A DNA stretch of 64,000 nucleotides from Paramacrobiotus metropolitanus (Eukaryota > Tardigrada > Eutardigrada > Parachela > Macrobiotidae). The DNA is taken from positions 1,240,001-1,304,000 of the forward strand of contig NW_026570231.1 of assembly GCF_019649055.1 (NCBI RefSeq), given 5' to 3'. The notes under the pieces were generated by a model that saw only the letters and a list, made by a program, of their open reading frames with translations, ran no database searches and had not been told where the DNA came from. Within the stretch, counting starts at the first letter, position 1, and every line of letters starts with the position of its first letter. This document shows positions 1 to 49,332 of this stretch, piece after piece. Made by a program: the position numbers and the translations under genes.

Positions 1-135
1 TGGAAAGCAAAAACTCTCATACTCGCAGCCCTTGTGGGGCTGCAATTTCGGCTACAATCCGGTAAAATTAACCGAAAGTTCAAGTTCTAAGCTAGTTAAC
101 CATAGTACCAGTGTTAATTAATGTTACAGTATCAG

Positions 136-12922: not shown

Positions 12923-13788
12923 TTCAAAGAAAATGTGCGCTACCACCCTGATGCTGATACTATGAGTGAGAGTGTTTTAGTATGTTCGGCTAGTTTTATG
13001 AAATACGATGTACTTCGGTAGCGAGTAGGCGAAAATTAATGTATTTGGAAATGATTGGTTTGATTCGGCTTAAATAAAGTCATGATATGAATCTGGCGAT
13101 TTTATGCAGCTCTTGTGCTCTAGTTAGATTGTCACTATTTTGTAGTTTATAATAATCGGCAAGCAAAAAAGTTAGTATTCTGGAATACTGCGGTGTCGTC
13201 AGATCGGTGGCGAGTCGGTGACAGGATCATATGTGTAATCGTATCACTGAAATAACTGGATATCATCATGTCGCCGTCGCAAGACGTTAACCGCTCCGGG
13301 ATGCCCTCATTTGAGCTCGTTGGATGGAAACTGGGAGCGTGCATTCATCGATTTTTTCAGATGTATAGTTAATAGTTGTACTTACTTTTGAAGCAAGCGT
13401 TACAGCTCCACTTTGCCGGAGTGTGGCGAATGATTCTACACTTCGGACAGTCGTGTCTCGTTTTGTTGCTAGATGCAGTGCGACTTATATATAATCGCTT
13501 GCTAAAATGGATCATTCTCTGAGTTCGCTCAGGCTTATTCGTAAAGCTAAATCATCTGCGGAGCCAGACAGCAGTTTGATTCGAAGAGGAATGCCGACTT
13601 TTGAGAAAAATTTGGCGACTGGTAGAGTACGTAACAGATCGCAAAATTTTGCCTGAATGCCGTCTAAAAAATTATCATTATTGTCCGTTTACGGTGTAGT
13701 ACTGATGTACAAGGCGCAGTTATGTACACCCGATCAACGATGCTAAAATGATGTATAGCGGGTAGCCCTCGATTATTCAGTATTTATC
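12923..13788. other. Intergenic
   Basis: 866 bp containing the 3' UTR of the upstream gene and the promoter side of the ankyrin-like gene. No gene or clear repeat seen. Confidence 0.5.
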
Positions 13789-15486
13789 ATGGATAACAGC
13801 CAGGCAATTTTGGATATTAAGTATACCACCGCTCGGGAAATATACGCGCTGTCAAACGCTGGCGAAATCTCGATAACTGATTCGAGATGGGAATGCGCAC
13901 TGGTCGCTGCAATTGCGAAGAATGACATACAGTTGATTGAAGCGATTCTTTGCTGCGGAATTCCAATGACCCATCCGATACTAAATATTATTTCTCCGGA
14001 ACAAAAAGAAGTGGCGGCGTTATGCAAGAAATTCTACCCCGATATCTGGATGGCCGTGCGAACCGGAAACGTGAAACAAGTGCGATGCCTGGTAAACCTC
14101 TGGCATAAAGTTTCCCTGACTCGAAATGGTCGAACTCTTTTCCATTTTGCTGTGGACAATGCCAACCCATACATCATCAGTCTGATCGGCGGCATCGAAG
14201 CCACGATGGATATTGCGCATTTTGTTCTGGCCGGTGATCTGGAGCGGTTACGCGCCGTTCGGAGCAACGGTCGCTACATTAAAAGGACACTGAAGCATTT
14301 CGGCCACAGCTGTGCACCGATCCTGTATTTTGCCATTGTACAAAATGATTTTCAGTTGGTGGAAGAATTGTGCCTTTACTTCTGCTCTAAAGGTGATGAC
14401 GAAATGTTGGACCAATACGGCGAAGATATTCCTCTTCTGTTCGTGGCCTTACAAAACGCTGTCGACACATCAATTGTCAATATTTTGGCATCGCATATGA
14501 ATCGGCATCTGTCGAATGTGTGGTACCAGAGTAAAAATATTCTGCAGTTCAGTATTGACCTCCACGTTCCCGTGGAATGTTTTACCCAAATTTTGCTGCT
14601 GGGTGGCGGGAAACTCCTTGCCGAACGCGATGTATTCAACCGGTCTGTGATCGATTATGTAAAATCACAAGAAATTTGCCCAAAATTAGCCGAACTGTAC
14701 CGGACAGCAGTTGACAATGTAGCGGAGGTGTGGATGCGTAACAAGACTGTCGATATCGGTTGGTTGGCGGGGAAAGGATTCGATTTTTCTGCCATAACAT
14801 CGGATCAATCAAAGTATGGAGAAGTGTTAGTAAGCGTCCACCTTATACAGCAAACCATCTCTAGTATGAGCTTCTGCATCGATACCGGTAATTTTCAACA
14901 ATTCTGCTATTTGGAAAGTCTCCCGATACCCACGGAGGAAGTGTGGCCGGATGTGGTGTGGTACGGTTGTCCAATTGGGACTGGTCAAACTCTGCTACAC
15001 CGGGCGGTCGTTAAAAATCGCGCCGATTTTGTGGATCTCTTCTTGAATCACGCAAACGTAGCTGATATTCCCCTTGACAATTTTGGAGCATCCGCATTAA
15101 GCTACGCCTGTGCCGACAGTGAATGTGGCGAAATAGAGCGGAAGCTACTGTGCAGTGGATTTGGCGAATACAGCATGGATAAGACGGGACACGATTGTGC
15201 CTCGTACCGCATGAAGCGCGACACACCGGAAATGAAAGTTTTTCTGTCAGAACTCTCAACTGGCTATTACGGTGCATCGCTCTTGTCATTGCCATGGACC
15301 ACTGATTCAGGCGCAATAATCCAGAACGGTAATAATATGCGTGACTGGGGATCCGTACCAACTGATGCCGGAAACAATGAGATACACGGCCTTGACGATG
15401 CTCACGATCGTACCACGCTTTACCCAAGGCGCTCTGTATCCGAATCAGTTGGGTCACAAAAGAATTCCTGGTGTATTATAATGTAA
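13789..15486 (+). CDS. Intronless ankyrin-like protein with C-terminal CaaX box (565 aa)
   Basis: One uninterrupted frame of 565 residues from ATG 13789 to TAA 15484-15486. Several segments have the ankyrin pattern: NGRTLFHFAVDN (about residues 111-122), and GQTLLHRAVVKNRADFVDLF followed by FGASALSYACADS in the C-terminal half. N-terminal helices such as ALVAAIAKNDIQLIEAILCC are also repeat-like. The last residues are SWCIIM, a CaaX sequence; methionine at the last position usually predicts farnesylation. There is no signal peptide or membrane helix, so membrane association by prenylation is the likely localisation (inference). Neighbouring genes of this size have many introns, so lack of introns is unusual and could reflect retroposition or a young gene. 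Many invertebrate ankyrin proteins are lineage-specific; I cannot name this one. Confidence 0.85.
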   Translation: MDNSQAILDIKYTTAREIYALSNAGEISITDSRWECALVAAIAKNDIQLIEAILCCGIPMTHPILNIISPEQKEVAALCKKFYPDIWMAVRTGNVKQVRCLVNLWHKVSLTRNGRTLFHFAVDNANPYIISLIGGIEATMDIAHFVLAGDLERLRAVRSNGRYIKRTLKHFGHSCAPILYFAIVQNDFQLVEELCLYFCSKGDDEMLDQYGEDIPLLFVALQNAVDTSIVNILASHMNRHLSNVWYQSKNILQFSIDLHVPVECFTQILLLGGGKLLAERDVFNRSVIDYVKSQEICPKLAELYRTAVDNVAEVWMRNKTVDIGWLAGKGFDFSAITSDQSKYGEVLVSVHLIQQTISSMSFCIDTGNFQQFCYLESLPIPTEEVWPDVVWYGCPIGTGQTLLHRAVVKNRADFVDLFLNHANVADIPLDNFGASALSYACADSECGEIERKLLCSGFGEYSMDKTGHDCASYRMKRDTPEMKVFLSELSTGYYGASLLSLPWTTDSGAIIQNGNNMRDWGSVPTDAGNNEIHGLDDAHDRTTLYPRRSVSESVGSQKNSWCIIM

Positions 15487-32578: not shown

Positions 32579-35500
32579 TCACGAGCTCTTAGCCTTTCTC
32601 GGGGCTCCCCGTCGCAGGGTGCTGGTGCTCGCATTGGAATTATTCCTCTTCTTAATAATCCATAGTGTTTCACCAGCGGTGTTTCCATCTTTATCGACCA
32701 TATCGGTCGACATACTGCCATCCTCAGCGTTAGGACCCGCTTCTTCTATTTTCTCTGCTGTCGTTTTCTCTGGAGACACAGGCTCCTGTGTACTTACGGG
32801 GATGTTAGCTCGTGAATGTCCAGCATTATTTGCTGCCTCCTTTGTCACAGATTTCTTCCCTCTTTTCGCTTTGGCTCGGGTCGGGTCTTTGGCTTTCTTT
32901 TTTGTAGTTTTTGTCTTTTTGGCTGGTGGTTCGCCATCAGTTTCAGCTTTCCGTTTTCCGGTATTCTTTGTCGGCGAGATAGCTGTACGTTCTTTCTTCA
33001 TACCATGTTCTCGCTGCATGTGTGTACATAAGGCTTGATAATTGTTTTGTTTGGCAAAACTGCAACCTTGTATGGGACACACGAAGATGAAAGTAGGATT
33101 AGGGTGTGTTTTTTGGTGTGCTTCCAGGACATGATTGCGCATATGCAGTAATACAGTATTGGAAAATCCACAGCCCGGCACAGGACACCAGAAGCTTCCA
33201 GATTTCTAACAGAACGTTTTAAATTTCAGTCTAAAAGTTTTACTCAAACTTTTACATCCGTGACCAAGGAAGGGTTGCAGATGTTCAACTTACGTAAGGG
33301 CGTCCGACTATCTGCACGGGGGTGTGGCACTGATCACCTGCGGCACTTTCCTACAAGCAAAATGCAAAACGATACTCTTCTACATTCAGTCACTGCAATT
33401 CCAACAAAAAATTACCTTAGTTAATGAAACATTGGCGGGATGCAGCAGACCACTATCATCCGGCTCAGCATGCACGGACTCCACATGGTAATACAAAGGT
33501 TTAGGCGGCCAAATACATTCGTACGTGCAGTCTTTCATTGGACAGGTAACGACAATCGGCTGTCTACGATCCACACTAGTGTGATAGTGCGCGTAATGCC
33601 TCAACAGTTGGGTTTTGTCCGCTCCACTAAAAGGAGGTTTCGTGCAACCTGGGAATAAACACTGCAACTGGAATGGTTTGACAAGCGTTCCCGGATGCAG
33701 AACCTGCAATTATAAAACCAACAAAATGCAAATACCGTAACAACTGGAGGAAGACGAAAAAAGACACGTGCCAAAACCAACTTTTATCATAAAAAATCAA
33801 TAGTACCAGTTATCTTTATAAGAAATAATTATTCATTAGTATTCACTCACGTCTTCGACACCGCTGACACGCAACTGTTCTTCTGATTTTACAGGATCAC
33901 CGGACGTCAATGTTTCTGCTTCAGCCTCTCCACCTACAGCATTTCCAGAAACTGCAGACGCCTCATCGGTTGCGTTTATCGGAGCAAGTTGTCCTGCTGC
34001 CATATCCGCCAGGGCATATTCGGGATGGCTTCTTTTAATATGTCTCCAGATGTTGGTTGAAGCCTGCTGCTTGGGCTGCTGCAACGTGGCGTTAGTAATG
34101 AAAGTACAACCCTCCACAGGACAGAGAAAATGAAATTCAGGATTTGGGTGGGTATAACGGTGCTGCTTCCAAAAATGCCGCTTCATCAGCACCGTGCTAG
34201 TAGCGATAAAGTCCTGCTTAGGACAGTCTTCAACCGGACATCTCAACGGGTCCACGATCATCTAATTTCACACAAAAGCTTATAAATTCGATTTCAATCT
34301 AAAATATCTATATCCAAAAGCAAAAACTTAGTGCGAAGTGAAGGACGAGATACCAACTATCCAAATAGGTATAATATCTACAGCATGTTGACGAATACGA
34401 TATCCCTAGTTGGAAGGCTGAGCAAATACTCGACGTTTCATAACTAAGTTCAAAAAAACCATTGATTATCAGCTTACATTGGCAGAACCTTTCATAAATA
34501 TTTTCGTTCCAAACTCTAGTGGCGCCTCAGAATCCATTTCGTCCGTCTTCGTCTGCTCAGTGGCATCAGCCACAACCGACTCTTCTGATGGCATCTACAA
34601 ACAGAAATTACCACAAGTAACAAAAGGTCAACAAAATGTCTAAAAATTCGAAAAAGCAGCGTAACAAACCTAGACTGCACTCTGATGATTACTGAACAAA
34701 AGTGAAAAAAGCAATGGTTCTCACCAACACGTCTTCCACAGGCTCGGTTGTTTCAGATGGTTGTTCCCCGGTATGATGCACCAACTGCGCCTCATTATTG
34801 GCGATATCATCACCAATTTCGCCGTCAGAGAATATCATTCCCGGTTCGGTAACAGTTGGCACGGCCATGCCGTCTACTTCAGCCGATGTAGTCTGCAGTT
34901 TTCCTGCATCCTCCATTGGAACTAGTGGTACAGCTAGGAACATTTCCGAATGGTCGGCCTTCATATGCTTGTACACTCGAAAATTCCCCACTTCGGAACT
35001 ATAATTGCAACCCTGTAAAATAATCCCCTAAAATTTCTGCAATATTCAAAGCGTTACTTTTATCACAACAAACTTTTATCTTAAGAAAATCGTATTTAAT
35101 TTAGACATCAATAATACTGGTAATCTTTCTACGGAAATATTAATTATTTATAATAACCCTCCAGATGTAAGGATTTCGTAAAGCAAAAACTACCTCCACA
35201 GGGCAGCAGTAAATAAAGTATGGGTTTGGATGTGTAAAACTGTGCAGTTTCTCGAAATGCTCCACCAGTTTCTTCATGCTGCTGTATTTAAAGAGGACTG
35301 TGCCCGCCTGGCATACCGGTAGAGGACATCTCAAGCCAAGCTTCTCCATCTGCAAATTAAAGATACATCCTGATTATTCATGTAAATTACACAACATAGC
35401 GGTCGTCTCGACTCCCGTTGTGTAAGTGGAGTACATACACTAATCGTGCCCAAAATAGGAACCGGGGTTCTTTTGATTTCGCTAGGTAAGACATCAATGT

Positions 35501-38453
35501 CCACCCCATTAAGATCTCTTTCGGTATTCGGAAGCCCTCTTGCCTATGATTGACAACGAGTTTCACGGATTTAAAATGTCCATTAATATTGTCTTCCATC
35601 AGTACCAAGTTCTGTTCCAGTTGGGCTAAATATTCCCGGTGAACATTCTTGATGTGAGTGTAAAGGGCATACGATGGTTCGTTATATGAAATGTATTTAC
35701 ATCCATCAAACGGACAAAGATAATTGAATATCGGGCTAGGATGAGTGGCTTTGTGATATTTCTCGAAGTGCTTCCGTAGCAGATCGCGATCCCATGCTCG
35801 GTAGTCGGCATGTGGGCAGTCCGGTAATGGGCACCGTAATGGGATCTTTCGGGTCTAATAGCAAACAACACAACTTGTAAAAATTTGATCTATCCAGAAA
35901 AACAGCGAAACATTTTCAATATTCCAAATAATAGTTTCATCGTTTTCAGAAATGGCGAATCCAGTATTGATATCAGCTTACAGTCAATCACGAATTAAAG
36001 GCACTACCAAAAACGACAAACCATGTCAGCCGCATAGTATGTCCAAAAATTAGCTAAAAAACGACCGGATTAGCTCGTAACACTAGGTAGTAGTAAAGTT
36101 TAATATAGAGGAAAGATGCAAATGTATTTACTATGGACACCATATCTGGATGTCGGTAAAACGACGTCTTACATGAGGTGAGCCAAGGACCAGAACGTGC
36201 TGACCACGCTGTCGTTGTCCATCTTGCCGCACATTCTTGGCTTGGTTCTCAACAGGGGAAATCACCTCCTCGTCCAACTGCTGTTCCTGCAGAAAAGAGC
36301 AAGTCTGCACTAGCGAGTCTGGGTAGACCGACAAAAGTACAAACGCTGAAGGCTATTTCTAAACTAATCGTACAACAGACAAACGAAAACCGAAAAGCAT
36401 GCGGCAAAGATGATCCCGAGCATAAGAAAAACTTTATAATACATTACGAGTGCACAATCAGCTTTCCTGTGTGTCAAGGAGTAGCGACGGAAAGAGGCGT
36501 TTAAACCGCGCGGACTGTGGTACAGGCGCAGTTGACAACCTTTTACTCGTCAGCCGGCCGGTTCACCAGTCAGAATGGAGCCGAAAGGCCTCTCATGGAA
36601 AGATCGCAAAAGGCCGGATGTAATCAAACTAATCATTACTCGTAGTCTTGTACCATGGGAAGTTGGGAACGCGGAAAGCCGCTGGCTTTCGACGTGACAT
36701 GCGTGGACACACCCGCTGCCTCGTACATCAGTCGTACCTTGGTGAACGTCGGGGCCGCAGCGGAACACACCGAAGAGAGAAACTGACGAAACACAGCTTG
36801 CTAAAACCACGGTAGAACTTTATGGCGGCAGCATTTGAAATGAACAACGCAGCTTGTGGAGAAGACTAGAAGCGATATCGCCACCGCCACAGACCGGAAA
36901 CGCGCGAAAAAGTTTTTCAGGAAAGCGACTTTCTATCCAGATACACGGGGAAATGCCAATTGTGTAATGGGTACAATTTCCGATCCGGATAGCATTGTGC
37001 TTCTGTTATAAATTTTTCCTAGTACAAAATTTGTACTCGTTCCGGGATAGTTATCAAAGGTATTATATTGCCATATGGATACGAAAACACTAAACCAGTA
37101 GACAATTTAAACTCCTCTAGCCAAAAAAATGGGCGAACAACAGGTAAAACGGGGACACAGATATAATCCAATGAACACCGAGGGGCATTCAGTTACGTAA
37201 GCAACTTCCCAGAATTTTTTATCGTGAGCTTTTCTACACATTATTACCGCCACCGGCAACTGGCCCATTTCTTTACCTGCGACATTTCTTCACCATCCGC
37301 TTCATTCTCCTCGTAATGTTCGTGCTCATGATCCTCTTCCTATAAAACACGCTTCGCCAGATATTACAAGCACCAAAGTTAAACTAAATGAGCGCTCCAG
37401 AGATTCAGCATAACTACGGTGTCCTGGAACGCAACTGGTTTTTTTACGTGTCTCACCTCCGTGGCATGGTTTCCAGCGCCACTCGCGTCTGTCAGCAGTG
37501 AACCAGACGCTTTGACGTGGAGTATTCGCTTGGATAATAATCCCTGCACGTGCTCCGCCGGCTCGATCGTGGTCACCTGCACAGATGGAACAGATCCCAC
37601 GGCAATCTATACATATCCACAGATGCGATCAAAATTAAACAAACGCGTATAACAGAAGTCACAAAAAGGACTGAAAGTCAGAAAATTAAAGAAAATGCTA
37701 GACTACTATGTCCATAGTCTATGGCTATGACTTAGTCTCTTAGTCTACGAGATAGGCAGCCCGAAATACCGTACAACTCCGTTTTAACATAGAATGAGAT
37801 GCGCAATCGATTTTCAAAGACCGCCGTAAAAGATGGCCCAAGTTTTCCATTAGATAACCGACTAGAAGTCCGTAAAAACGAAAACAAGCAGCTATTAATA
37901 TGAAGTGTTAACATTTGAGTCACATAACTAAGGTCTTACGATTTTTTAATAACAAAGCAAATTACTTCTACTTCTAAAATCAGATAAAAGTTTTTTCCGT
38001 ATGAGTAGTTAAAGTAGTATCCAAAAATAAATTCCGACTTATCAAAGTTGCTGTTAGTTATCTGACGGAGTTTAATTGTTTTGCTCAAGAATATATTGTT
38101 GGAAAATAAAAGCTCATTGTCCAGACTCCATACTATGTACATAGGTCTGCGGTGCCTAAACAATTACCGCAAAATACTAATATTAAACTTACCACAGGAG
38201 TTTGGACAAACTGCACTGGATGGACATCAGCAAATGCAGAGAGTTCTTCCAAACTAACGGTTGGGAATTCCAGATTCCCATCCGCATTCTGCACCAGTCC
38301 AGCGGCTGCAGCAGCTGTAATAATTTGCTGTCCTTGGGTCACACCTTCTCCATTCGTCAATCTGTGGATATACGTCTTCAGATTTTCTATCGTTTGCTGT
38401 AGATTTATAATCGTATTGTCCTTCGCTACGCATTCCCGACAGATTTCAGCCAT
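32579..38453 (-). CDS. Ten-finger paired C2H2 zinc-finger protein (981 aa)
   Basis: Twelve exons: 38193-38453, 37457-37606, 37277-37339, 36173-36286, 35441-35854, 35194-35349, 34725-35012, 34478-34594, 33851-34261, 33416-33703, 33294-33350, 32579-33205. All eleven introns are phase 0. The N-terminus has a short coiled-coil-like stretch and an Ala run. Five modules follow, each two fingers of the form CX4C…HX4H joined by a linker usually reading THPNPxF: from CPLPDC…HFEKYH and CPFDGC…HIKNVH (about residues 203-270) to CPVPGC…HVLEAH and CPIQGC…HMQREH (about 777-845). The tail is basic (KKTKTTKKKAK), then acidic. Probably a nuclear nucleic-acid-binding protein; no named family recognised. The 3' border of exon 35441-35854 is the least certain. 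The long intron 36287-37276 holds a LINE remnant. Confidence 0.85.
36544..37000 (+). mobile_element. Degraded 3' end of a LINE-type reverse transcriptase frame
   Basis: The + strand reads SWKDRKRPDVIKLI, then after a one-base shift GKPLAFDVTCVDTPAASYIS and LVNVGAAAEHTEER. This is the pattern often seen downstream of the reverse transcriptase domain in non-LTR elements (RPDG…W…D.TCVDT.A.S…AG.AA…). Further fragments of the usual tail occur at about 36855-36985 (ETREKVF in one frame, GNANCVMGTI in another). Several frameshifts and a stop show it is dead. It is nested in an intron of the zinc-finger gene, in the opposite orientation. Confidence 0.6.
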
Positions 38454-40356: not shown

Positions 40357-43300
40357 ATGTCGGCATCAGGTGCTTCGGTTGTCTTGTCTGTGTTACGCCA
40401 GTCGGATGCAAAATTTTATGAGTGGAATTCCTTCTGGAAGAAAAACATCGAGCCACTGGCATTAGCCGATAGCACAGACAAGGATGATATTCTTTTGATT
40501 GTGAGAAGTATGGTAAGCGTTTCACTATAAGGTAGTACTTGCTTGTTTGTACCAAGCTGTTTGTTACGGTAAATATATATAATAATTATGTTTAAATGTC
40601 ACTTGCATTGGGGTGAAAGCCCCCTCGAGGCAACAGGCAAAAGGTCAAAGGGCGATGAAAACAGCATCAAAATAAGCAAAGCAGGGACTGAGGCAGACAG
40701 AGAAAAACCAAGGTTTCAAACCAAACACAGCGTAGTAGTATGAACACATGTATTGTAGCAGATTAATTATTATATAAACTTATAAATTTGAAACAGAGCA
40801 AAGTTCGTTTTGAGAATTAATGAACATTGAGAAGCCGTTTACATATCAGCTGTAAGAATTCTCCAGTCAACATTCGGGAGTGCCAGAAGGACGTCAACGG
40901 CAAGCAGCTTTTTGAAGGAAAACACAACTCATTCCATAGGGATCGGAGGCAGATAAATCAGAAAACAAACAGGCAACACCTTATTGTACGAGTATAAGCA
41001 TACAAAAAGGCTGAAAGCTACGAGACTTTTACTTATGGTTAAGCGAAAACAGGATTTTTAAAAAACACGCGGCTCCGCTTCGTGACTTCGCTGTCTTGAG
41101 GTCGAGTTCTATGTATAGGCAATAATCTGAAAATATACAGTATTGAACTGATTATGTTTGACGGAACGTTTTTTGTAACTTGTTGTACTTAGGATAGCCT
41201 AACAAAACTGTTTTCTTTAATGAGCTTGCAGTACTGTAATAATTCACAAAGCACTTCGGTGCAGTACATACCTTGCACCGGTACGTATTGCACCGGTAGC
41301 TGCTGTTGTCAAATTTTACAAGTACTTTAACGTGAAAAATGAAAACAAGTACTTCGTCAGTTTTCTTCAAAAAGGCACGCACGTTGTAATCTGCCTATTA
41401 AACAATAAGATTAATGCTAGAGCAGCTTAAGTAGCTTTACCAACAGTTACAGATATGTAAGAGCATTTATTGGCTAATTGCCAAATAACAAAGAAAAAGC
41501 GCAAACACTGACTTGAAACCAGGCGACGATGTGACACTAGACAAACATCATTGAAACTGCAGTGCGAGAAAAAACGCAGCCGTACTTTGCGATTGCTTTA
41601 TTCGGCTAGTTGTTTCGAAAAAAGTGCAGAAGTGCAAGCATTTTGCAATTACCAGCGTCCAGCTCTACCGTAAACCGCGACGCGATCTATTGTATAATAC
41701 ACTTATATTATACACACTATAAGAGTAGTCACTGCTTACCATTAGTGAATCAAATTCAAAGAATCGGATTGAAACGTCCGTTTTGAAAATAATAACAAAA
41801 AAATATGAAATTTGCAAAATGCGATATTTTTTGGCGCGTAAATTTCGATGTAGCTAGTTATGCTACCGTTTAATAATTGCAGAATCAATAATAGTTGTTA
41901 CCCGGGCGCTTTTGCAAAAAAAAAACGTTCTAAACGGCTGGAAAGCGTTCTTATGGAAGCGAAACGCCGAAATATGCTAAAAGCGCCGTAAATAAAATAC
42001 TGGGCAAGTTACAATTATACAGATCAACTTCTTGATTTTTTTTCAGGAGGATATTTATCAAGAAATATGTCGATCACAGCAAAGGATGTCTTCGGTTTAC
42101 AGCCGTCCGTTTCAAAATGGGTATTAAAGAAATAAATATTACCGTACGAGTACACTTACAATTATTAAGTAGGAAGTCAATATAGCTGTAGAAAATATAT
42201 ACTTGATAGAGCAATATAGCGCAATGCAGTGCATTGTGCACGAGAATCGCTTGTCTTTTATGGTTTTACATGGTTTTTTAGCGGACAGCAAATTCGAAGT
42301 CCACCTTCTATCAGTCCCCAGTTGAGCTTGAACAGCGATGTGGATTTCAGCATACATCTTGGGTAATAAGTTACAAATAATTTCCCGTTTGGGTGCCTAT
42401 AATCCGGTGCTGTAATAACTTGCAAAATACTGCTATCAACGATTTTACTTTAACTTTGATATAACTGTCTATACTACTTCTATTATCCTATAATATCTAC
42501 AAATCCTTATGTACAAATAGCCACTATATAAAGCCAATATAAGGACTGTTCTTTGAATATGTATATATGACAATTTAACAAACAACCAACTTTAACTGTA
42601 TATAGTACGATATCAGACGCAGAAGAGAAAGACGAAGTCGAAGAATTGGTGCACTCATTCGAGCCAGGGGAACGAAGAGGAACGCTCACTCCCATGCAGC
42701 TACCTCCGCCTGACCTTTCCGGATCCCCATCTGGTGGAAATCGATCAGTTAATAAGTTCGTGCAGAAGTTCTTGTCAAACGCTTTAGATAGACGTTTATG
42801 TCTGATTTAAACAAGTATGCCTTGAAAACCATGATAATTAATAGTAATCAGCAGTAAATAATAACCAATAATTACTAATGTTAATTATCAGTTACCATTA
42901 CCTATGCAGCCTATTGTATAAAAACTTCATCGCGCTATTGTATCCTAATTACGTGTTAGCATTGCGATCAACATCATAATTATTAAACAATTCCGCTGCA
43001 TGCATATCTGCATTATATATCTGTCAGGCTATATATTTGTGTTTCCAAACTTCGCATTTGATTTAACAGCAGCATCTGCTACTGTATTGTAGACGGTTAA
43101 TTAATAGTGTTTTTAGCAAGTAATATTGCAAACTGCTTAGCTGTGTTCCATATGCTAGCGTAGTTAGCAAAAATACAAACGACCGAAATTAATTTTTAGG
43201 AAAGCGGCTCTAAAAAATTATTTGCGATCGTCCAGCGTGCAATCTTCTACGTCTGCTGAAGCTGGGTCGAATCCATCAAGGTACGAAGTACCTGCAGTAT

Positions 43301-46300
43301 CATCAGTGCGCAAGACGAACTTATGAAAACCAATTACAACAAAAAATTTAATATGCCTTTATTAAAATGTTATCGGTAATTGTTAAAAACTTTTTCGTGT
43401 TATTAACAGCACGACTTTGGTTTCTTGATAGTCGCCGAATCAGTGCGATGAAAGCGGGGCTAGAAAATGATGCAGTTTCTCTGGATGGTCAGTCGTTATC
43501 GACAGATCAGTCAGTACCCGGGAAGAACAGCCGGCACCCAACTCGTGCACGTTCGCCCTCCAGTGTATCAATGGGAAATGTCTCGACCACCGGTACTATA
43601 ATGACGGTAAGTGGATAACCAGTCAAGTAACCAACGCAATTTCACTTTACAGATTTAATAAACAGTTAGTACGTATACATTTCATTTATATTAATTAATG
43701 AACATCGCATAAATTATGTTAATACTGTAACATAATCCAGTGCTTATGTATCTGTAGAGCAACTACTTCCAAACAGTCGAAAATTACTCCGAACTGGACC
43801 TCAAGCCAGAAGTGATTCAAGGACTGGAGCTTTTTGCATCCAAAGATTTAACTCTAACGCAGAAAAGAGCTATTGCCCCGTTATTAGAAGGTATGTGTTG
43901 AACTAAAATGTGGCAAAATTTCAGAAATAGAGAGTTCATCCGGATCCGCTGACAAGCACAACATGATAAGGACAACATGACAAGCACAACATGTTCTAAC
44001 CTTTCTATTGCAATTCCAAGAATATTCCAAGAAAGTGAATCGATATCCTCCCAAAAAATCTTAATGAAGCCTTTAAATTAACCATGCACCTTATCATACT
44101 TTACGATTTTGGTATCAGAATACTACCAGTTTAATCTATTTCTTTGATGAAAGCGCGTAAAACGTGAATTAATATTATTTAAAGCGGAAAATTGCGTAGT
44201 ATTTGCCGGCTGTTCTGTTTGAAGAACTATCGGTCTATTACACAGTGTTTCTAATAATATTAACTTTTTTAACACATATTTCCGTTGAAATTCGATGTGT
44301 ATTAGGTATTTTGCTTCTAGCGACAGGTCTACCTGCGATAAACAGCACCAGTGTTTTATTGTTCAAGTTGGTAATGCTACTCAATAATCACGTTCCGTTA
44401 GTTGACGGCTTGACGATAGCTGCAAAGTAATACCGAAACAGCAGTTACAAAGTAATTGCTTTATTTTTATTGCCTAAGATTTTAGTGTACTGCTTGGTAT
44501 TCGTAAACTAAAATGCCTGACTTTTACCATATAGTTCACGCTTGGGCTTAAGCCTTTTGTATAAATTTTTGATCAGGCCGAAATGTTATTATGGAGGCAC
44601 CGGAGAGGAGCGGAAAATGCGCGGTTTGCACAACCACTATCCTCCAACGACTGGATACATCGAACTTGGAATGCCAGATTGTTATATGCACAGCTGACAA
44701 AGACTCAACAGAAAGGGTGAGAACTGATCTGGAAATTTTGTAACTTGGTCTCCGTTTAAAAAAATTGAATACTTAACTGAACAATAATGATCCGTTTCTG
44801 CTGCAGTTTCGAAGCCTTTTGAAGACCGTCGGGCAATACGTCAGACCGAGAATGCATGTGTGCGATTCTTCCTCCGTAATGAATGACATTAAACGCTTAA
44901 AGAGTGACCGGCAGATTGTCATCGCTACTCCAGAGACTCTGGAAAAGCTCTGCGCAAAACGCGTTCTGTGTACGTGGATTTTAAATTTTTCAGTGGAAGG
45001 AAGCATGTACTGAAGTATTGTAATAAGGCTTTGGCACATTAAAGTTAACTTTTATTTATTTACTTTTTTATTTTACTTATGCAGCGATGAACTAGGGTTA
45101 GCTGTTAATTATACAGCCTCTAGGAATGTTATAGACTTATAATGTCAGAATATTACCTGCCTGCTTTCACTGTTACAGATTTAAAGGAAGTGAAAATGTT
45201 TGTTATTGACGACGCAGTCAGTATGAAAAATTCACAAAATGCTATACGCGATGTTTTCATTCGATTGCCGGAAGATGTGCAGGTAAGTGCAAAAACTATA
45301 CAGCATTACGAAAATGGGGGTCTGGAATACGAGTACTGTTCACGACTTTTCTTAGAATACGAGAATAGGTATGTATATTCTTAGAATACGCATGCATATT
45401 CTTCTGTCTCGTGCACTGTAGACTGTAATGAGTACCGGCGACATGGGAGGCGACATGATTTAAGAGTAAATTAAGAGCATTTCAACATCAGATGTCGCTT
45501 TCACAGGTTGTCGTTTTCGCCCCCAAAATACCACCGGCAATGTACCGCCTCTTGAAAACCTTCGTGCTCGATCCTGTCTGCATCATGGTTGACGAAAAAG
45601 AATGGGCAGCTTCCACATCTCATGCATACTGGCACGGTTATTACAATGTGCGGAATAGTGTACGTACAAATTGTTCTAGTGTCAAAATTTTAATTTTAGT
45701 TACTTACTACCGTAAGTCACAATTTCTAATTTATTATCCTTTCTAACAATATTACCTAACGTGATGGGCGATTGTGCAGTTGTGAACTGCCCATTGGGTG
45801 ATTAACAAATCATTTTCGCAGGAATGGAAGCTAGACACTTTAAAAGCATTGTTCAAGTCCAGAGCTCTGCCATATACAGCTGGAAAATCTCTTGTGGTTT
45901 GTCCCAATCAACCAGAAACACAGCTGATAGTGACGGAGTTGAAAAAAGCCGGTTTCGTGGTTTACAATATGGTTAGTAAATGGAATATTAATTTAGTAGA
46001 CTTTATAGAAGGAGAAAAACTAATTACTTTTGTATTTCACCGACTCTAATAAAACTTGTCAAACTTCATTCAAATTTCCAAGACTACTGTCATGACTTAT
46101 TAACGGTAAGTATGTACTCATACGACACGACATACGTAATAATAAATATAAAATTATTCCCTATTTTATGCTGTGAGTACTATGTGATTTTCCTACTCTA
46201 GAGTAGGTATCAGTAGTTACAGTAATTGTGTCTGGCATACCGTTCTACTGACAATGAATGCTTTGTAGGATCAGAAAAAAAATTTACCTGAAGAATTCCT

Positions 46301-46711
46301 TACCAAGACAACCGGCATACTGGTAATGACTTTAACAACACTCAAAAATTTTTCGGAGAAAATGGGAAACCTTAGGCTAATCGTGAACTATGGGTTACCT
46401 CCTGACATCAAAGACTACATCTATACGTAAGTTTTGTTCTCGTTCTTTGGTAAAACCTTGCAATTTTTTAGCATTCTCAGTAATAAAAAAAGGGTTTCAT
46501 AACAGTCCATCTTTATAAATATATTAAACTTTTTAGACTTCAACATCTGGACTATCCACAAGGGAAATACAAAGGATACGTTGTAAATTTTGTGACGCCG
46601 GGAGAGATGCTTATTCTGCAAGCTATTCATGATTACCTTAACATAACAATCGAGCAGATTGACAGCAGCGTCTTTTCTGAACTTAAAAGATATCCAGCAA
46701 AAGTGACGTGA
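40357..46711 (+). CDS. Degenerate DEAD-box (eIF4A-related) protein with long N-terminal extension (630 aa)
   Basis: Fourteen exons in consistent phase: 40357-40512, 42047-42120, 42282-42362, 42606-42755, 43200-43280, 43432-43606, 43758-43890, 44577-44716, 44807-44969, 45179-45282, 45507-45659, 45822-45971, 46269-46426, 46537-46711. Residues 240-630 align along an eIF4A core: LTLTQKRAIAPLLEGRNVI, KMFVIDDAV, FVLDPVCIMV, EWKLDTL, RLIVNYGLP, GYVVNFVT. The catalytic motifs are broken: AxxGxGKT is APERSGKC, DEAD is DDAV (395-398), SAT is APK (424-426), and the HRxGR arginine-finger motif is replaced by QHLDYPQGK. It is therefore predicted to lack ATPase activity. The 239-residue N-terminus is Ser/Pro-rich, with an acidic patch (DAEEKDEVEEL). 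The donor of exon 4 (GTTCGT) is weak. Confidence 0.85.
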
Positions 46712-46999: not shown

Positions 47000-48539
47000 T
47001 CATCTGCTCAAGTCAGCAATCTCAATCGTATCATGGGCAACGGTCAGTATTTCGGCACAGTCTTCTTTAATTAAGATAGTTTCCTCAAACTGGGCGCTTC
47101 TGCTGTTATCCACACTGATAGCTGTCCAACCATCCTCAAGAATAGTAATCTTATCGCTTCCTTCCGAAACAACCGGCTCTAAAAGAAAATCAGCACTTCA
47201 GAATCTAAACCACTGATATAAAGTAACGAACTGTCTTAGCTCAACCAATCAAAGGAAAAATTTCGGCCGCATGCGACCAAGGTTTACAGACCTATTGTAA
47301 ACACCATTCCTGTTTCCATGATAGTTTCATCGATATTGGCACGATGTATAACATCCGGCAACATATGGAAATCTTCACCGATCCCATGACCACAGAAAAA
47401 CGGAATCACGCTGTAACCGTGGTCCGAAGCCGTTTTCCTGTAGATGTAAAAGAAAATTAACTGTTATTCTGCTCGGTCATCGGCGCCGGTTCTGACGTCT
47501 GCATACTGCATTCTTTGCATAAAAAAATGAAATGCGTACTCTATTATTTCACCGATTTCGGACATTGATTGACCGTTCCGACAAATGCTAATGGCATTTC
47601 TCAAAGCTAATTCAGTGATGTGCAAGAGCTTTTCCGCTTTTTCATCGATTTCGCCAACGGGAAACGTTTTTGAGCAGTCTCCATGATATCCACCTAGGAA
47701 CACCTTAATTCTACGTCAGTTGCTCTCGACCTATATCACTTTGACATTAGAATTTACATGCAAAAACATTAATGGCAAACCGAACAAAACTTTAAAACAA
47801 CTTCATTAAAACTGTAACAAGTGCGGTGAAAGGTAATCGGCGACTAATCGCATTTCATAAGAAAATAGTAATTAGAAACCCAGTCAAACTCAATTCGGTT
47901 TAGTTTAATTTACACGCATTATTCACTCTTTTGAAGTCCAATAAATAGTCTTTATATTTTTCACTTAATAAAAATCAAACCATTTACATAATAACAACAA
48001 CTTCCCATTCCAGAAAAACTTACCGTGACATCAACATTGACAATATCTCCCGCGATCAGCTGTCGACTGTCCGGTATGCCATGGCATGCCACATTATTAA
48101 CCGACGTGCAGATAGACTTCGGATATCCACTGTAATTCAACGGCGAGGGGTATGCGTTATGCTTGACAATAAATTCAAAGGCAACATTGTCCAAGTCGGC
48201 AGTGGAAACCCCTGGCTTGACGTGTTTCCCAACATACTCCAGTGTTTTCCTTGCTAACTGGCAGGATCGCCTGATGCCTGCAAGCCGTTCTGGATTGTGC
48301 AGATCGGTCTGCTTTTTATGCTGGCCAACCGGAGTTCCATCGCCATATGACGGCGCCCGGATATGGCTAGGAACTGTCTGAATGTTGACCCACGGGCTGG
48401 GATCCTGGAAGAGCCAGGGCTGAACAATGTCATAAGAAGACGGCCGAATACTGTTTGTCGAGGTAGCGATCAAATGTTGTTTAAACTTTCTCCAAGGTCT
48501 TAGCAAATGCTTCAGTATCACAAAGCGCGAGATCAACAT
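47000..48539 (-). CDS. METAP1D: Mitochondrial methionine aminopeptidase, type 1D
   Basis: Four exons, 48024-48539, 47540-47703, 47292-47437 and 47000-47178, give 334 residues, the length of animal MAP1D. It removes the N-terminal methionine from proteins made in mitochondria. The basic presequence (MLISRFVILKHLLRPWRKFK) fits matrix import. All five metal ligands are present: Asp170 (NVDVT), Asp181 (GYHGD), His244 (CGHGIG), Glu276 (FTIEP) and Glu307 (AQFEET). The substrate-side NYSGYPKSICTSVNNVACHG is intact. The donor of exon 3 is GTCTGT; family homology fixes it in preference to a nearby GTAAAC. The gene converges on the eIF4A-like gene, 288 bp away, and is head to head with the F-box gene. 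Confidence 0.96.
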
Positions 48540-49332
48540 TCCTTGCGCTTTTTCTCTTTAGCGATCAGTTGGCCAACACATCACATTTTCTAAATAGTGA
48601 ATTGCATCAAAATTAAATCTTATGATAACATCATAATAACATTAACAACTTCATAATTATGTAGCTTTAATTCAAACGTAAACCACTCAATCCGGATGCT
48701 GCTGCAACTTGCCACTTGCCAACGAAGTTAGCAAAAAGATGCTGAGCAATGTATCGTTAGTATGTAGGAAGATGATCTAACGATAGAATAAGATACTTCA
48801 ATGAAAATCTATAGAAACAAAAAAAGTTTAAGATTTCTAAAAATAAGGTATCCCAGATCTCTCGCATCAGTCCAGCCCACGCAAACTGCGCGAGACGGCA
48901 GTTACTATAGCAACTGGATCTTTAAACGTTTCGAAACTTGTTTTGTAATTTGAACCTGTGACTTCACGGGTTTACCTGGCTCTTCTACTGACCTACTCAG
49001 TCAGTGAGTAGTCCTAGCCATCCAGTTTTGGTCCACCTATGATAATTTTGTTGGGTTCGACAGGCACGATTTTTACAGCTCATTTTTGCATTGTGTGTTA
49101 TTATTGTAGGGTGCCGAATGTGTGACTGCGGGTGTGTCCGGCGTACCAACTCAACTGTGAAAAATCTTGAGCAGACACGGTTTATAGATGGCGTGAGCCA
49201 GCCTAGACTCTGCCTTGGGTGCTTGCGGCAGACTTAACATTCACAAGCTGAGCAGTGTGATAATTATTAAGACTATTGAAAGAATGTTGAAAGAAGCCTA
49301 CTGAACTCGGCTTTTTTTTCCTGTATTTGGCC
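48540..49332. other. Head-to-head intergenic region (METAP1D / FBXO31-like)
   Basis: 793 bp between divergent start codons, presumably both promoters. No gene or repeat identified. Confidence 0.5.

Follow-up and report, generated by a model that had tools for sequence, protein, structure and literature searches.

The gene at positions 40357–46711 (forward strand) of the window, the whole 64-kb stretch of DNA analysed here (C11:1240001–1304000; the searched assembly comprises 169.8 Mb in 533 contigs), putatively encodes a 630-residue protein related to the RNA helicase eIF4A. The source is very probably the tardigrade Paramacrobiotus metropolitanus (formerly sp. TYO): the assembly contains five DM-domain loci, as many as the DMRT genes described for that species, and two of them, on C5 at 2.135 and 2.163 Mb, fall within the 1.96–2.37 Mb interval of scaffold 5 given in PMC11191345. 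As the preliminary description had proposed, its 14 exons splice in frame without a stop: the open frame runs from an ATG at 40357 to a stop codon ending at 46711, and all 13 introns have GT-AG borders. These exons show none of the usual marks of pseudogenes: they contain no stops or frame breaks, and no splice site is lost. A methionine-aminopeptidase-like (M24) gene at 47284–48557 (reverse strand) lies tail to tail with the target gene, whose stop codon is about 0.6 kb away. Elsewhere in the window, a row of exons at 32579–35854 (reverse strand) contains similar aberrant C2H2 zinc-finger frames, one of them matched by Pfam zf-C2H2_aberr, and perhaps represents a tandem family, while a 575-codon single-exon frame with ankyrin repeats (13759–15486, forward strand) sits among otherwise intron-rich genes.

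Exons 1–6 (forward strand, like all exons of the gene) encode a 239-residue N-terminal extension containing 18.4% Ser and 6.3% Pro. Exon 1 (40357–40512; residues 1–52) has the start codon, the highest in-frame codon score of the six, a donor reading ATG/gtaagc, and a GC content of 0.44 versus 0.34 in introns; like the rest of the extension, it has no relatives in Pfam or in the same genome. Exon 2 (42047–42120), preceded by the acceptor tttttttcag, is the least certain by GC, whereas exon 3 (42282–42362; GC 0.48) and exon 4 (42606–42755; GC 0.51) stand out more clearly. Exon 3 has GT-AG borders; the donor of exon 4, gttcgt, is weak, and in-frame alternatives lie close by at 42767 and 42773. 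The Ser-rich exon 5 (43200–43280; donor gtacga) is followed by exon 6 (43432–43606; donor gtaagt, GC 0.53), where the extension ends and the terminal residues GTIMT pair with GVIE of eIF4A. Since their combined GC (0.478) is clearly above that of the introns (0.343), the six exons, all open, are supported as exons. The earlier proposal of a Ser/Pro-rich N-terminus of 239 residues is plausible, although the reading frame is not distinguished by codon usage, the exon 4 donor is weak, and no homologue was found in Pfam or in the genome. The tail is likely part of the same protein. A search of the extension for the eIF4E-binding motif YxxxxL-phi found none.

The helicase part (residues 240–630) covers both RecA lobes of eIF4A-I. 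Each of its exons is supported by intron positions matching those of C48, the organism's canonical eIF4A gene. RecA1 begins in exon 7 (43758–43890), where the Q motif has lost its aromatic residue and Pro and retains only Gln (residue numbers here and below are those of human eIF4A1). Exon 8 (44577–44716) carries motif I, changed from AQSGTGKT to APERSGKC (G79R, T83C), and motif Ia, changed from PTRELA to ADKDST. In exon 9 (44807–44969), the GG motif reads DSS and motif Ib TPET instead of TPGR; exon 10 (45179–45282) has DDAV in place of the DEAD of motif II (E183D, D185V); and exon 11 (45507–45659), which completes RecA1 and the linker, has APK in place of the SAT of motif III. RecA2 starts in exon 12 (45822–45971), which preserves the segment EWKLDTL but carries the changes D265A, E268K, D296G and T298V. 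Motif IV is broken, and exon 13 (46269–46426) preserves IVNYGLP but has lost motif IVa, which is partly deleted, and motif V (TTDLLARGID to MTLTTLKNFS). Exon 14 (46537–46711) contains the C-terminus and the stop codon, and its motif VI reads YTLQHLDY rather than HRIGRGGR (R362H, R365Y), with the loss of both arginine fingers.

These readings agree with the motif sequences originally quoted for the gene (I, Ia, II and III) and with the stated loss of the arginine-finger motif VI. The accompanying statement that almost every motif is destroyed is correct for catalysis, since none of the ATP-hydrolysis motifs I, II, III and VI is intact, but not for every residue: G81, K82, D182, TP in motif Ib and Gln in the Q motif persist. 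Taken together, T83C, E183D, D185V, SAT to APK, R362H and R365Y would be expected to remove ATP hydrolysis and domain closure. The RNA-contact motifs Ia, GG, Ib, IVa and V likewise depart from eIF4A, and the losses in Ia, GG, IVa and V would remove RNA contacts. A role as an RNA clamp, one of those first suggested for this protein, is therefore not borne out, the motifs that would hold RNA being gone.

Descent from eIF4A

Sequence comparisons place the target within the eIF4A group. Pfam DEAD matches residues 273–423 (E = 2.3e-18), and a phmmer search against PDB chains returned eIF4A-I as the best match over residues 235–617 (E = 1.9e-37) and eIF4A3 as the second (E = 9e-36), which confirms that two RecA-like halves align end to end with eIF4A. 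In spliced alignments, all eight introns of the helicase part agree with C48 in position and phase. The E-values and these shared introns together exclude chance similarity, and the introns independently prove both the exon structure and that the gene descends, through DNA duplication, from an eIF4A gene. Identity to eIF4A is only about 28%, compared with 76% between C48 and human eIF4A1. Judged by its sequence and introns, the target arose, presumably long ago, by duplication of the intron-containing eIF4A gene that the organism also carries.

Several other origins were considered and set aside. A retrocopy is ruled out, as all introns are common to the target and C48. The same introns make it very unlikely that alternative exons, a possibility left open at first, would restore canonical motifs; nor does a splicing error mask such motifs, which sit in homologous exons, with exons 7 and 8 of canonical eIF4A length (133 and 140 nucleotides). 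The target is not an eIF4A3, which scores second and has a different gene structure: the eIF4A3 gene of this genome (C45:884277–885597, L016) has one intron in its helicase part versus eight in eIF4A, at a position that is free of introns in the eIF4A copies, and keeps every motif. The suggested link to an exon-junction-like complex accordingly finds no footing, as the target derives from an eIF4A-I type gene and lacks the C45 intron position. Identity with Utp25 is also ruled out, given that Pfam yields only DEAD up to E = 1, the best match is eIF4A and the introns are those of eIF4A.

Degenerate eIF4A copies in the same genome

Genome searches with the target and eIF4A, followed by spliced alignments, revealed at least four further loci that are eIF4A copies with decayed motifs: C74 (384003–385799), C19 (540923–542806, reverse strand), C162 (166628–168384, reverse strand) and a pair limited to RecA1, C8 (near 2174.5k) and C309 (near 56.4k). 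The members of this pair share 91–93% DNA identity over 7 kb including introns and would be either haplotigs or a recent duplicate. All sister copies carry the eIF4A introns, at the positions found in the target, in whatever part remains (4/4 in the RecA1-only pair). They are 35–69% identical to canonical eIF4A, leaving the target as the most diverged of the set, and have no recognisable copy of its N-terminal extension. C74 is 69% identical to C48 and reads SETGKT, TPDH and DEAE at its motifs, with R362H. C162 and C19 share 49% identity with C48 and 56% with one another; their motifs read TRSGQK and NRTGKK, DDAD and NDAD, and TRA and AKT, respectively, with R362F in both, and motif V of C19 is interrupted by an in-frame TAA.

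Some losses recur across the set. R362 is missing from every degenerate copy that has RecA2 (H in C74, F in C19 and C162, H in the target), R110K is common to C19, C162, C8 and the target, and Gly79 to Arg in motif I and Glu183 to Asp in motif II are common to C19, C162 and the target. A tree places the target beside C19 and C162 (support 85/85), a placement that we leave undecided given the very long target branch. Comparison of the sequences suggests that decay took the same direction in several of the organism's eIF4A copies, which lost the catalytic site and arginine finger, with the two-RecA fold under purifying selection. Another helicase present in several copies is the UAP56/DDX39-like (DECD) one, with three complete loci and two matching over RecA1 only, one of the latter with changed motifs (TAGR, GPT), among L024 (C67), L019 and L022 (C14), L026 (C16) and L020 (C279).

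The retention of eIF4G contacts differs among these copies and bears on whether the target could act as a dominant-negative decoy, replacing active eIF4A in eIF4F or in another MIF4G complex (CNOT1) and lowering translation, like engineered DQAD eIF4A. Dead eIF4A mutants are dominant negative (as cited in PMC12063893), and the EWKLDTL helix segment adjoining D265 is unchanged in the target. However, eIF4A touches eIF4G through R45, D265, E268, D296 and T298 (PMC7470955), and with R45Q added to the four exon 12 changes, all five are altered in the target. One of these, E268K, is among the four substitutions of a published non-binding mutant (D265R, E268K, D296A, T298K; PMC7470955). Four of these contacts persist in canonical C48. 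Retention of none in the target is not significant by itself at 28% identity. Less diverged copies keep D265 and T298, together with R45 in C74 and with R45 and E268 in C162, and the decoy reading thus fits them better than the target. For the target itself, the competition for eIF4G that had been put forward is not supported, and a decoy role seems unlikely. Two further candidate residues, E249 and D253 of the Pdcd4 literature, were dropped as eIF4A contacts; presumably they belong to Pdcd4 and not to eIF4A.

Selection and the putative role of the protein

The target appears to be under selection as a protein rather than drifting as a pseudogene, which supports a central claim of the preliminary description. 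Its 391 helicase codons contain no stop, whereas neutral drift simulated from the C48 coding sequence to the target's level of identity (300 to 400 runs) produced about 14 on average and never fewer than three. Hydrophobic core positions remain hydrophobic at 84% of sites, whereas drift would leave 63±5%; exons 7 and 8, which align without gaps, give the same picture. Fewer invariant residues are kept within motifs (9/57) than outside them (60/180; p = 0.012), a pattern to be expected from the abandonment of catalysis rather than of the fold. In a branch model of six sequences, omega = 1 on the target branch was rejected (2 dlnL = 15.9 under the best topology and 10.8 under an alternative one); for the degenerate pair the model gave an omega of 0.2. 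Because silent sites between the target and C48 are saturated (dS 43) and GC3 differs (0.46 in the target versus 0.83 in canonical eIF4A, a difference that the codon model ignores), the target omega is to be read as a bound, a rejection of 1, and not as a value; pairwise omegas of the target versus eIF4A or C162 were dropped for saturation. Among the sister copies, pairwise omega was 0.21 for C162–C19, likewise non-catalytic (2 dlnL = 105.6 against 1), 0.18 for C8–C309 and 0.11 for C74–C48, each rejecting 1.

Alternatively, the target may be a decaying duplicate on which selection has relaxed or recently ended, heading toward a pseudogene with no present role. The stop codon in C19, the length of the target branch (2.21 changes per column) and the weak codon bias reflected in its GC3 are consistent with such decay, and after a recent loss of function the frame would stay open for some time. 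Yet the helicase codons have stayed free of stops and frame breaks despite saturated silent sites, the helicase exons retain all 16 of their splice sites, and both the core hydrophobicity and the rejection of omega = 1 run counter to relaxed constraint, making this outcome rather improbable.

The target gene is instead probably that of an eIF4A-derived pseudohelicase: an old duplicate under purifying selection, presumably expressed, whose product would act as a non-enzymatic, two-lobed protein scaffold with a Ser-rich tail. After duplication, the catalytic site and arginine finger would have been lost, with purifying selection presumably retaining the two-RecA fold as the enzyme motifs decayed; motif loss alongside a preserved hydrophobic core would fit this course. 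The protein is predicted to lack ATP hydrolysis, RNA clamping and the eIF4A mode of binding eIF4G, and a scaffold role is the most likely one because the contacts for all three ligands are lost. By analogy with Utp25 it would bind proteins, and its tail could be a flexible stretch used for binding or phosphorylation. Although the kept G81, K82 and D182, together with the Q-motif Gln, may be compatible with nucleotide binding, it is highly improbable that ATP or ADP sets the lobe positions for a protein partner in a switch without hydrolysis, considering Thr83 to Cys, Glu183 to Asp, the absence of both arginine fingers and of the Q-motif aromatic residue and Pro, and the lack of K82 in C162.

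For such a scaffold, the closest known kind is Utp25/Def, a DEAD-box protein of the SSU processome that works without catalysis and, according to PMC9539457, was the first pseudohelicase to be fully validated. Utp25 (PMC9539457) resembles the target in its vestigial DEAD motifs, in having the two RecA-like lobes that are predicted for the target, and in a long extension at the N-terminus, disordered in Utp25 and Ser-rich in the target. Their origins are separate, as the target has eIF4A as its best match, eIF4A introns and only the DEAD family in Pfam, and Utp25 is conserved from yeast to human whereas the target is so far known from one genome. Compared with eIF4A (eIF4A-I/II), which it resembles over both RecA lobes, the target lacks the catalytic, RNA-contact and eIF4G-contact residues and would have gained the extension; its sisters share its intron positions and, where RecA2 is present, the loss of R362, but are less diverged.

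Jointly, the dead eIF4A copies could form a layer of translation control in this tardigrade lineage, for example holding initiation factors or mRNPs inactive in the germ line or while the animal dries; the less diverged copies would then serve as eIF4G decoys, and the target as a scaffold with its own tail, though we regard this as a speculative and decidedly improbable extension. A search of the open-licence literature found no description of these degenerate copies. eIF4A is among the most conserved eukaryotic proteins. Given this conservation, and the dominant-negative behaviour of dead mutants, a genome keeping several dead eIF4A copies under selection is unexpected. The copies would offer natural separation-of-function variants of eIF4A, as well as an opportunity to study how a helicase turns into a scaffold, in an animal whose stopping and restarting of translation on drying is of general interest.
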